Part shown: one piece after another, positions 27,374 to 61,795 of the stretch | Layout of the letters: each line of letters starts with the position of its first letter | How positions within the stretch are numbered: position 1 is the first letter of the stretch | NCBI RefSeq assembly: GCF_009730595.1 | Contig: NZ_CP046276.1 | Coordinates: forward strand, 992,001 to 1,056,000 | Length of the DNA: 64,000 nucleotides | Origin: Spiroplasma tabanidicola | GTDB taxonomy: Bacteria > Bacillota_I > Bacilli_A > Mycoplasmatales > Mycoplasmataceae | Direction of reading: 5' to 3' | Made by a program: the position numbers and the translations under genes | Notes under the pieces: generated by a model | Told to the model about the DNA's origin: nothing | Databases searched by the model: none | The model's input: only the letters and a program-made list of their open reading frames with translations

Positions 27374-30300
27374 GTATGTAAGGGGTTGTTTTTTTATTTG
27401 GCGCATTGCTGCTAATCAACCTATAAACATTATTCCGCCAACCGCAACAAAGGAGACTAAAGGGATATAATATAATATCGGCATAGCTATTAAAACCTGC
27501 AACTTAATTCATATCACATACTTAATAACTAATCAAACAACTCATGACATTGCATAAGCCCCTAAAAATGCTACTAAAGCTCCAGTTAGGTACCTGCCCA
27601 TAACCATTCAATTGACTTGTCTATCTTTATATCCCATTGACCGCATTATTGTTATTATGTTTATAGCATCAGTAACAACTATATTCATTATTACTATTAA
27701 TAAAATAACCAATAAAAATATATCTATTAAAATATACATTAACATTGTATTTGACATTTCTTGCATTATTGCATTTATAGCGGATTTTAAAATCGGAATT
27801 ACAACTAAGGTTAAATCTGTAGAACTAGCATTCAATGCATATACCATTTTTGGGTCTGCATCTTTAGTATAATTTTGAACTATTTTTAAAATATCTTTTA
27901 TACTGTCGCTAATTGGGACATTTGCATATTTTAATAATTCGTCTAAGTTTTTATAATATATATCTAATGAAGGACCTAATCATTCTTTTGCACCTTTTCC
28001 AAAAGATGTAAGTACAGTTGTTGTTGTTAATTTATTTGCGATATTTAACTGAGAACTTTGTAAATTTTTTATATCAAAATTTCCTTCTAAACTTGGATTT
28101 ATACTATATTTTTGATTAAAAAATAATTCATCTTTTGGTAAAAATTTATCTCCTAATTTATCCATTAATACATTATAATCTATCAAAATTTTTTGAGACA
28201 TATTGTCAGCTTTAAGAACTCCTGCAATTTTTGCATCAATTACCATTTCTCCATTTCTTCCAACTTGTAGTTTAAAGTTTTGATTTACACTAAGTTTTAA
28301 AATTCTTGCAATTCTTTGAGATACAAAAACATTTACATAATCATTAGAAGAGTCTTTTATTTCTTCTATTTGGTTTTCTTTAATACCTGATAAATTCAAT
28401 ATTGTTTTTGGGTTTCCATATTTATTCGAAAAATCTATGGCAACAATATTTGTATTATCAATATCAATATCATGATAATCAGTAGCAAATCCGGAAATTA
28501 TTAAAGCTAATAAATCAGTATTTGAATTATATAAAATCCCATTAGATGCTATAAATTGATCATTTGTCCCATCGGTTGCATTAAAATTTTTTGTTGCAAA
28601 CTCAAATAATCAAGTTTTTAAAATATTGCTCATAAATTTATCAACATTTGATACTTCTGATTGTTCGTTATTATTTTCGTTTATATTATTTCAAATGTTT
28701 TCATTTTCATTATTTTCTATAAAATTTCCACTTCCACCTAAGTAGTTTTTATAAATATTTTGTCTATATGCTTCAACATTATTACAATCTTCATATTCTG
28801 TTTCACTTGAAACGCAAATGTATTTTGCGACATCACTTAACTTAATTGCGTTTGTAACTTTAGTTTTAGTTTGTTCATAATTTTTTACATTATATAAATT
28901 ATCTTGGGCAATTCAATTTTTCAGTTTGGTTTTCAAATCTGCTTGAGAATTTGGATTATTTATATTAATAAGATCATTTAAAACTTCTAAAATATTATTA
29001 TCTAAATTATCAATTTCTGAAAAAGGATATATCAAAGAAAATGTATTAAATACTAATGGCATCATCTTTTTGTATTCATCAGGAATTTTATATGTATTGT
29101 TGGTTAATATGAATTTTCTTATATCTGAAATTTTTGTAAATAAATCAGAAATTTCTTGATATTTGTTAAAGTCTTTCAATCCCTGAGATTTTGTATAATT
29201 ATTTACATCTCCATATTGAGCATAATCTATATAATTAATTGTTGGAGTTTTAGAACTTGGATCAATTCTTATTTTATCTCGATAACTTAATCTTGATTGT
29301 CTTCAATAATTATAATAGTGATTTGTTTTATCTGTGAAGATATTAAATGCCCCATTAATCATATTATTAATAATCGGCAGAGCTCTCATTTGTAAAGTAA
29401 ATAAGAATGAACTAAATCCAATTAATATCATAATTAATATAAATTTTCCTTTACCAAAATTAATAAACGTTTCTTGCATTCTATATGTAAATCCAATACC
29501 TTTTTTCTTTAATCATTTTAAAACCAGTTTATTAATTCCTACATAAATTAAAGTAATTGGAATGAAAATATATATAAACAACAATAATAATTTATATTTT
29601 TTTTGTTTTGGTCCACTATTCATTAAATCAAGCGCACCTTCATTTAAATAACGATAAATCACTAAATACGAAACTATAGAAAATATAAAAGGTATGCCTA
29701 TAATTAACACAACTAAGAATCACGGATTAGTATAAACTTGTTGATAGTCAAAAATAACAATATTTTGATAAACTTCTGTTGCTGCTTTAATTTGAAATGG
29801 TATTGATAAAAAATAACCTATAGTTATTGCTACAAACATCGTTATAAAAGTCTTAACTGCAAAAACCCAAGTAAGATCTTTTGTTTTGTAACCTAATGAT
29901 TTAAACACACCAAGTTGTTTTCTAGTAGCGTTAATTTCTTTTTTAAGAACAAATGTAATAAAGAAGAAAGCTAACACAAACAAAATTCCACCAATTACAC
30001 TGAAAATATAAGTCATTATTGTTAAATTTGTCAAATTATCAATTTGATTAAACTTACTCATATTTTTAAATACAGTAGTTCCGGCATTTATCATTCCTGT
30101 AAATCCTTTTGTAGCATCAGATACGAAATATGAATTTATATCGTATTTACTATTTTTAATCATTCTATCTTGATCCATAGTTGAATTACTTGGAAGATTA
30201 TAGTTTTCTCCTAAGAAATTATTTGCATATAATATGTCACTATCAAAAAATGATTTATCGACATAAATTTGACAATAGTTTTTTGACGAGTCTAAAATAT

Positions 30301-58667: not shown

Positions 58668-59564
58668 TTAGTACCTTTTATTTTCTCCTTTAATAGAAAG
58701 TTGTTCAGCTAATCCTTTAATTCTTTCAATAATTCTTGTCGTTCTAATTCTTTCAATATCTATCATGTCATTGTTTAATGGAATATTTTTTAAATACAAT
58801 TTTTCAAGTTGGTTTAATGTAAAGTTAGATGTAAAAAAAGTTAATTTATTATTTTCTAATCTTGTGTTTAATATACCAAATAATAAATCATCTTTACTTC
58901 AGTTAGACACCAATTCTGCTCCAATGTCATCTAATATCAATACATCAACTCTTGTACAAAGTTCTAAGAATTTATTATAGTCATTTGAATTGCTAGAATT
59001 AAATGTTTCTTTTACAGTTTTAATAAGTTTATTTACAGTAACAAGAATTACTTTCTTATCTAAAAAAGCGAATGAATTAGCAAGTATTTTCATTAAATAT
59101 GTTTTGCCAATACCTGGAGAACCACATAAATAAACACCTTTTTGTGGATTTTTATTTAATAATATTTCTTTTGCTTTTTCTAAAAAATACTTAATTGAAG
59201 GATTTAAAGTATTAATGTTTTCTTTTAAAAATTGAGATATTTTTTGAGTATTTTTATAAATGTCATAATCTGCAAAAACTATATTTTCTTTTAATTTATA
59301 GTTTTCATTTTCATACTGTCAATGACTACAATATGTTGTTGAGATATATATTTGTTTATTTTCATAAGATAACTTAGGTTGAAGACCCTGTATTAGTTGT
59401 TTACACTCTGATAAAGGTGCTTTTTCATAACAATACACTAATTGCTCTATAAAGCGAGATAATACAAGGTAATTAGTTTCTAAAACTTCATCATTTATGT
59501 TATTTTTTTCAATGAACTTTTTTAATTCTTCATTTTTTTTTAAAATATCAAGATCTTGACTCAT
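58668..59564 (-). CDS. dnaI: Primosomal helicase loader DnaI
   Basis: 298 residues. N-terminal helical domain (1-105, helicase-binding) lacking the full zinc-ligand set I would expect; AAA+ domain with Walker A YLCGSPGIGKTY, Walker B VLILDDIGAE, and sensor region FFTSNFTLNQLE. It loads replicative helicase DnaC/DnaB. ATG overlaps the dnaB stop by one base (TAATG), so it is coupled; ribosome site GAGGTG. End of the dnaB-dnaI unit. Confidence 0.94.
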
Positions 59565-60817
59565 TAAATGTCACCTCAAAGAGTTGGGTCAATTTTAATA
59601 TTTTCATCGACTTCTAAAATATAAGTATCTTTTTTAATTTCTTCTTCTCAAAGTTTAGTATGAAAATTGCTAGACATTGGTTTTTTAGGATTACTTTTTT
59701 TATTAGCCAATTTTAAATATTCCATTGTTTCTTTTGCATTTGTAATTCCACGTTCATTAATAGTTTTTGCTATTTTTAATAAGTAATTTTTTACTATTTT
59801 TGAATCATTTTTTAAATAAGAAAATTCTAACAAACAGTTTACAACACCATCTCTAAGTTTGTGTTCTCTTCTCAATGATCTAATTATTTCTAATTCTTCT
59901 AAAGCTAAATTATCAACACCCATTAATAATTCTAAAAATGTGATCGGATCAATTGTTTCCATTTCTTTAATTTTTGCATTTGTTTTATTTTTCTTATTAA
60001 GTTCTGGGTCAAATTCCGCTTTCAACTCACTTGTATCTTCATGAACAAAGTACTTTGATGATATTGAAATATAAAACTTTTCAATATCTAAGTCAACATT
60101 TTCAGCATCATAAGCTTTAATTAAAGCTTGAACAATGATATCTTCAGTTAAACTATATGAAATATATACTTCTTCAATAACTTCTTTTAATTTAATATTT
60201 TCTTTTGAAACATATACTTTATTTTCTGCTAGTTTTTTAATAATTCTTTCAAAGTTTAAGTCTTTTAAAAGAACATTAGTTTTATTTTGTCTAAATTCAA
60301 AATCATTACAAATTGTATTTTCAATTTTTTTATTAAACTCTTCAAATACTTCTAAAAATTTTGAAGATGTGTTTTGATAACCATTGTCGTTTAAATCATT
60401 TTCTTCTTTAAATGTTAATTTTGCTATTTCATAGTTTTTGTCTCCAATTTTATCTAATAATGCAGCGTTAAATAAACGATTAGCAAAATAGTCTTTCGGC
60501 TCTAAAGGTGAGTATAAATTAAAAATAATTGAGTTTTTTGCTTTATTTTCTAGAGTAACAACTAATCCCATAGCTTCAAGTCTTTTGATTGCTTTGGTTA
60601 ATTTATCAGAAGAGATTAAAGATATGTCTAATAATCTTTTTTCATCATATATTTCAGTTTTTTTCAACTCTTTAATGACTTCTGCTTCATGAAATAATGT
60701 CTTATAAAGTGCAACACTTCTTAAACCTAGTATTGGTTGATATAAGTAAGAAAGAACTTTGTCATCTAACAAATCAATTCTATTCTTTAAAACTACTTTA
60801 TATGTATAATTTCTCAT
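59564..60817 (-). CDS. dnaB: Replication initiation and membrane attachment protein DnaB (Gram-positive type)
   Basis: 417 residues. Belongs to the DnaB/DnaD family of primosome proteins, not the helicase. N-terminal winged-helix part (YLYQPILGLRSVALYKTLF) and C-terminal DnaB/DnaD-type helical region with SLTEDIIVQALIKAYD and VVNCLLEFSYL. It recruits helicase to the origin with DnaI. ATG 60817 with AAAGGT is preferred over GTG at 60835. A stretch carrying two DnaA boxes lies directly upstream. Confidence 0.92.
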
Positions 60818-60901
60818 GATAGTATTACCTTTCACCTATATGATATTTAAATAAAAAAAAATATAAATAAGTTTAATAACTTTTAATAAAATGACTTGAA
60901 A

Positions 60902-60961
60902 ATGTGGATAACTAATAACAAAAAACCCTTTACTTTAGTGTTTATTTACACTTATCCACAT
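60902..60961. promoter_or_regulatory. Inverted pair of perfect DnaA boxes upstream of dnaB
   Basis: TGTGGATAA (60903-60911) and TTATCCACA (60952-60960) are exact consensus DnaA boxes in opposite orientation, 40 bases apart; symmetry extends one more base on each outer side. They lie in the 150-base gap between mutM and dnaB. In B. subtilis DnaA is reported to bind near and regulate the dnaB-dnaI operon, so this is likely a DnaA-controlled promoter. No AT-rich unwinding array or further boxes argue against a full origin. Confidence 0.8.
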
Positions 60962-60967
60962 ACGAGA

Positions 60968-61795
60968 TTACTTTTGACAATTTTTACAATAATAAGTTCC
61001 TCTACCATTCACTTTAATTTTTACAATTTCACTTTGACATTCATAACAATTTTGACCTTTTCTAGTATGAACTTTTAATTCATTTTGAAATTTACCATCA
61101 ATTCCTTGTTCAGGTTGATAAGTATCAATTGTTGTTCCTCCAAGTTCAATAGATTTTTTAAGTATTTTTCTTGCAGATTCAGCAATTCTATCATAATCTT
61201 TAACTATTAAATAATCTCCTGTTATTAAAGGATTAATTTTTGCATCAAATAAGATTTCATCTGCATAAATGTTTCCAATTCCAGATATAATAGTTTGATC
61301 TAAAAGCATTGTTTTTATATGTCTAGAACTATTTTTCATTTTTTCATACAAAAAATTACCATCCACTTTTGAATTAAATGGTTCAGGACCTATTTTTTTG
61401 ATCGGATTAATATCTAAATACTCATTTACATCTTCTAAATTAAAAGTCCCAAATCTTCTAGTATCATGATAATTTAAAAGTTTATTATTTGACAAGTGAA
61501 ATGTTGCTAAAACGTGTTTTTTATCATATTCTTCATTTTTATCATAAACAAATCATTTACCTTCCATACGTAAATGACTAATTAATACTTTATCTTGTAA
61601 TCTAAAGATAATGTATTTTGCAATTCTTTCAATATTATCTATTTTTTTATTTTTTATTATATTTTCAAAATCTTTAACAGTTTGATTTGACTTAATTATT
61701 TTTGGATAAAATATTTCAACTTTCTCAATAGTCAAACCTTTTAATCTTTTATTTAAAGATCTAACAACAGTTTCGACTTCTGGTAATTCTGGCAT
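60968..61795 (-). CDS. mutM: Formamidopyrimidine-DNA glycosylase (Fpg)
   Basis: 275 residues. N-terminal PELPEVETVVR with the catalytic Pro and Glu; helix-two-turn-helix region with GIGNIYADEILF and Asn; C-terminal zinc finger CYEC...CKNC; K in LRMEGKW. It removes 8-oxoguanine and nicks abasic sites. AAAAGGAG ribosome site overlapping the polA end; polA-mutM is an ancestral Firmicutes pair. Confidence 0.97.

Follow-up and report, generated by a model that had tools for sequence, protein, structure and literature searches.

Between mutM and dnaB this genome carries two exact copies of the 9-mer TTATCCACA in opposite orientations. DnaA is the initiator and also a transcription factor, and the pair raises the question of whether DnaA might act from this gap on the helicase-loading genes dnaB-dnaI, or whether the repeat has some other role and stands before dnaB by accident.

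The mutM-dnaB gap and its boxes

The window is the whole 64,000-nucleotide stretch of DNA that was analysed, and positions refer to it unless the genome or contig is named. Its minus-strand gene order is polA, mutM, a 150-bp gap, dnaB, dnaI and GAPDH, polA and GAPDH being named from their translations. The features of the locus are these:

60952–60960, plus strand: box 1, exact TTATCCACA, the distal (mutM-proximal) candidate DnaA box
60903–60911, minus strand: box 2, exact TTATCCACA, the proximal candidate DnaA box
59564–60817, minus strand: dnaB, Firmicutes-type helicase co-loader, 417 aa from its ATG (Pfam DnaB_2, PF07261)
58668–59564, minus strand: dnaI, helicase loader (AAA+) (Pfam PF07319 and AAA+)
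60968–61795, minus strand: mutM, the upstream neighbour (Pfam Fapy_DNA_glyco/H2TH)
60840–60867, minus strand: putative weak promoter TTTATA-16-TATCAT, downstream of both boxes

The gap of 150 bp runs from the mutM stop at 60968 to the dnaB ATG (60817–60815), and dnaI overlaps the dnaB stop. The two 9-mers face each other with exactly 40 bp between them, which gives a start-to-start distance of 49 nt; the coordinates thus confirm the original prediction of an exact pair, 40 bp apart and in both orientations, in a gap of this length. Relative to dnaB, and counted from where the dnaB match begins, box 1 is in reverse orientation at −140 and box 2 in forward orientation at −91. The Pfam matches (DnaB_2, 9e-07; DnaI_N, 5.5e-06) identify the product of dnaB as the Firmicutes helicase co-loader and not the helicase. 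The DnaA of the same genome possesses Bac_DnaA and Bac_DnaA_C domains (Pfam), and its C-terminal part contains FGGKDHTTV, which we take to be the DnaA signature.

Exact TTATCCACA occurs at 19 sites in the 1,284,335 bases of the whole genome. Fourteen of these lie inside ORFs, five of the 14 in one repeated ORF, and the five non-coding sites comprise two at oriC, the two in the mutM-dnaB gap and one at genome position 29150. The window holds one further exact copy (35592), within an ORF. Nowhere else in the genome is there an exact inverted pair with a gap of 25–55 nt. Simple arithmetic from the genome-wide count puts the chance of such a pair at about 1e-6 for a single specified gap of 150 bp and about 1e-3 over some 1,000 gaps, and bears out the earlier claim that the arrangement is unlikely to be fortuitous; the suggested count across the genome likewise came out in its favour, with two of the few non-coding sites at oriC.

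Several of the other sites deserve mention in their own right. The copy at 29150–29158 (C1) lies in a stretch without ORFs longer than 300 nt, and an Rfam scan at this site (L001) and at L013 gave no match. The repeated ORF, of about 1.4 kb, is present in five copies (C1 60979, 260500, 896264, 943032 and 1240079; L002, L003, L010, L011 and L016) which share an identical 33-mer around TTATCCACA; it is probably a mobile element.

Conservation upstream of dnaB in the Mycoplasmatales

Of the order's 320 genomes, 196 gave a dnaB match and the other 124 did not. From these, 110 upstream regions (30 loci and 80 regions) were taken, and two (G171 and G164) were dropped because their matches began elsewhere than at the start of dnaB, leaving 108. 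Genomes outside family f1 were mostly taken in order of E-value, so that the sample leans towards closer relatives. Conservation in relatives had been set beforehand as the test that could overturn the original prediction. In 73 of the 108 genomes TTATCCACA or TTTTCCACA, a motif set picked after the first conservation results, was found in the 300 nt preceding dnaB, against about 1.3 expected from shuffles (summed per-family fractions), the genomes being related and the counts not independent. Exact TTATCCACA alone accounts for 45 of 108. The first 300 nt of dnaB contain a box in none of the 108 genomes, and a control stretch from −700 to −400 in three. The box upstream of dnaB is in reverse orientation in 71 of 108 and forward in three of 108, the present genome having both.

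By family, the box is found in 45/58 genomes of f1, 8/8 of f11, 5/5 of f9, 4/7 of f7 and 11/23 of f8; within the same 300 nt the strict box is absent from f3 (0/5), f4 (0/2) and 12 of the 23 members of f8, and upstream of dnaB in genus g27 it was found in none of five. A further 18 f7 genomes contribute six, for a total of 79/126. No P-loop was found downstream in 12 of these 18, so that some may not be dnaB-dnaI loci; a DnaB_2 match is absent in 12 of 30 f7 genomes. Within the host genus, a reverse box with no more than one mismatch is present in all 20 genomes.

A MutM C-terminal motif lies upstream in 44 of the 73 box-bearing genomes and is not found in the remaining 29, which comprise 12 from genus g8, four from f7, 11 from f8, and G316 and G318. 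The last two may be cases of a missed MutM, judged by eye. Since the box persists where mutM is undetected upstream, it follows dnaB rather than mutM.

Within f1 a reverse box (≤1 mismatch) lies between −215 and −110 in 52 of 58 genomes, the other six having none in that interval even with one mismatch. Half of the 52 (26/52) also have a forward box (≤2 mismatches), usually weaker, in the window 47–51 nt beyond the reverse one, their actual offsets being 48–50 nt; other 5-nt offset windows hold on average 0.5 and at most 2. By these counts box 1 is the deeply conserved member of the pair. In most relatives which have it, box 2 is degenerate (TTATNNACA), reading TTATTAACA or TTATAAACA, and it often matches at just seven of nine positions. 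In the closest relatives by dnaB identity it is TTATTAACA (G187) and TTATTCACA (G186, one mismatch). Of the two perfect boxes originally described, both are exact here, but perfection of box 2 is special to this species and the conserved feature is the 49-nt geometry.

This geometry becomes visible when box variants are allowed. Exact inverted pairs with a 25–55 nt gap are present in 11 of the 320 genomes, and a control with the reversed pattern gave none across the same 320. At dnaB, other than in the present genome, the exact search finds a pair in G211 alone, and by itself would have suggested no conservation there beyond that genome. In G211 (contig 115, L117), a member of the distant family f8, the exact inverted pair lies approximately 380–330 nt upstream of dnaB. 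Further exact pairs in the order include G068:C3:189865, G069:C27:1315, G117:C4:196268 and G127:C11:134993.

In other genera both boxes point the same way, and the second is found at 51–54, 61–63 or 83–84 nt. When each of the 17 genera with any pair is represented by a single modal spacing (two subsets chosen afterwards were also tried), the values group around multiples of 10.5, with an R of 0.58 that random spacings reach in 0.27% of draws. An approach to whole helical turns is suggestive only, because the genera are related and coding sequence may contain some of the pairs.

Likeness to the dnaA promoter and oriC, and other readings of the repeat

Autoregulation of dnaA through DnaA boxes in the dnaA promoter and oriC is general in bacteria, and the dnaA promoter of the same genomes resembles the dnaB gap in having a strong reverse box near −150 and a forward box 47–51 nt downstream. 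Upstream of dnaA in f1 the reverse box near −150 is present in 34 of 40 genomes, with a forward box at 47–51 nt in 13 and at 86–90 nt in 23; this extra forward box, frequent at dnaA, has no counterpart at dnaB. In the present genome the boxes before dnaA are a reverse TTATCCACA at −148 and a forward TTATTAACA at −98, close to the −140 and −91 of dnaB. The base two positions before the box is A in 49 of 52 dnaB boxes and in 29 of 34 dnaA boxes.

The letters of the box point in the same direction. Thirty-nine genomes had data for both oriC and dnaB and 35 of them a box on both sides; in 29 of the 35 the variant before dnaB also occurs at the genome's own oriC. Permutation of the variants gave a mean of 19.9, with none of 5000 reaching 29, and permutation within genus a mean of 24.4, with three of 5000 reaching it. 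In G187, for example, the dnaB box and three oriC boxes all read TTATTCACA, and genus g8 is an exception with TTATCCACA at dnaB but TTTTCCACA at oriC. Across this sample of sequences, then, the dnaB box letters covary with the oriC boxes of each genome.

DnaA might be held by these boxes with no consequence for dnaB, the pair serving as a titration site like E. coli datA or the DnaA-box clusters of Bacillus subtilis, and its location being incidental. Two exact boxes make a plausible high-affinity sink, and passages of PMC5295017 describe earlier initiation in B. subtilis upon loss of six clusters outside oriC. Yet there are just two boxes, often with one strong; the 200 nt upstream hold two with at most one mismatch and not a dense cluster of the datA/DBC kind. 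Distance and the single orientation to dnaB are kept even where mutM is undetected upstream, and the geometry is that of the dnaA promoter, a layout which a sink would not require. We regard titration as unlikely, though the strongest of the alternatives.

The sequence of the gap itself bears on a second alternative, that the inverted repeat is a transcription terminator of mutM and its match to the DnaA box is fortuitous. Minus-strand RNA of the repeat folds at −15.4 kcal/mol against −8.2 for shuffled sequence (z −3.1), and a hairpin terminator which most relatives in the genus have between the boxes is missing here (60912–60951). A search for intrinsic terminators (a G+C-rich stem followed by a T run) found none in the mutM-dnaB gap. 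In the relatives, however, box 2 no longer fully pairs with box 1 (TTATTAACA versus TGTGGATAA) and a separate hairpin stands between them; moreover the box letters track oriC, and the boxes persist without a detected upstream mutM. A terminator as the whole explanation is thus very improbable; because it folds in RNA and the inter-box hairpin of relatives is lacking, the repeat may contribute secondarily to the termination of mutM transcripts.

The gap might also be conserved as such, through shared ancestry and not for DnaA. The genomes are indeed related, and the closest relatives have other blocks in common. Against this, identity in genus g1 is 0.91 for box 1 but about 0.52 for what lies between the boxes and beyond them, and the 9-mer persists over several families with visibly different gaps, so that we give ancestry alone a slightly smaller chance still. 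Least probable of all is a second or relic replication origin, for although the geometry resembles the dnaA-side half of oriC there are two boxes only and the oriC of this genome sits at the dnaA end, with boxes at 1284172 and 1284188.

A candidate DnaA-responsive control region

We are left with a predicted DnaA-responsive control region of the dnaB-dnaI operon, arranged as a dnaA-like promoter module, to which we assign a probability of about 0.77; binding, its cooperativity, the promoter position and the sign of regulation are all predictions. The original prediction had proposed DnaA control of dnaB-dnaI, and conservation, covariation with oriC and the dnaA-promoter layout support it, binding and a transcriptional effect being presumed. 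By its consensus boxes, conservation (79/126) and oriC-like preference (29/35) the region can be classed as a predicted DnaA-controlled promoter.

DnaA would bind the strong reverse box, roughly 150 nt ahead of the start codon, and presumably a second box some 49 nt nearer the gene, cooperatively; in other genera this role would fall to the same-orientation box at about 51–54, 61–63 or 83–84 nt, near whole turns. A promoter consensus scan of the gap did no better than shuffles. An alignment of the host genus contains a conserved T-rich (T/A-rich) block and a TATTAT-like −10, with both boxes upstream of these. Since both boxes precede the likely core promoter, action from upstream is indicated, which argues against simple promoter blocking. 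The DnaA complex would most likely modulate transcription of dnaB-dnaI from there, with activation weakly favoured over repression by looping. Because the same box geometry occurs at the dnaA promoter, initiator and helicase loader would be supplied in step with each other.

Downstream of box 2 and before the likely promoter (minus strand, approximately 60850–60890) there is a tandem 10-nt repeat, TTATTAAAAG/TTATTAAACT, and close relatives have similar A/T-rich repeats. These are possibly weak DnaA sites or an UP element.

The original prediction spoke of a control kept in a minimal genome. Here the evidence points the other way. With dnaI as the anchor, 40 Bacilli from outside the order were sampled, and none has exact TTATCCACA within 3.5 kb upstream of that gene, so that the element was probably gained within the Mycoplasmatales; TTTTCCACA occurs in three of the 40, in each case within the ORF preceding dnaI. 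ORF lengths in many of these Bacilli fit the order mutM-coaE-nrdR-dnaB-dnaI (names by length and position), and 58 of 60 Mycoplasmatales genomes lack the NrdR ATP-cone domain. The simplest reading of these arrangements is that the element probably arose when dnaB-dnaI acquired a promoter of its own.

More tentatively, and at somewhat less than even odds, the DnaA regulon of the Mycoplasmatales may have been cut to dnaA(-dnaN) and dnaB-dnaI, both under one shared module (a strong box near −150, a second near whole turns) which was gained on leaving the mutM-coaE-nrdR-dnaB-dnaI layout and forms one feedback circuit. If so, this single circuit would be what is left, in near-minimal cells, of transcriptional control over the initiation of replication. 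Two successive initiation steps would be coupled by a DnaA switch that is conserved at the helicase-loader operon and arranged like the dnaA promoter. Given its recurrence across an order with very reduced regulation, the switch may count as one of the few controls on replication which selection adds or keeps there, and the timing of initiation in near-minimal cells becomes directly testable at two promoters.

A literature search at the level of titles and abstracts found no earlier report of a DnaA element at dnaB-dnaI. By term search, DnaA and dnaB are absent from the main text of a Mollicutes promoter-mapping paper (PMC5138195), and the matching passages of PMC4447404 include no dnaB or dnaI region.

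Related systems are known from other bacteria. According to passages of PMC5295017, the DnaA-box clusters of B. subtilis, which like the present boxes are distant from oriC, have been proposed to limit free DnaA; unlike these, the element described here stands before dnaB-dnaI, where all 40 sampled Bacilli outside the order lack an exact box in the 3.5 kb upstream of dnaI. In E. coli, as described in part of PMC11317965, DnaA binding relies on two boxes at a set spacing, as we presume here, but those pairs are 2–3 bp apart whereas these are 40 bp apart or near whole-turn multiples. In Caulobacter crescentus, to follow the relevant passages of PMC8203912, DnaA regulates replication genes and predicted boxes lie upstream of dnaQ and the dnaB helicase gene, as members of a DnaA regulon. 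That bacterium belongs to another phylum and its dnaB encodes the replicative helicase, whereas dnaB-dnaI here specify the loader.
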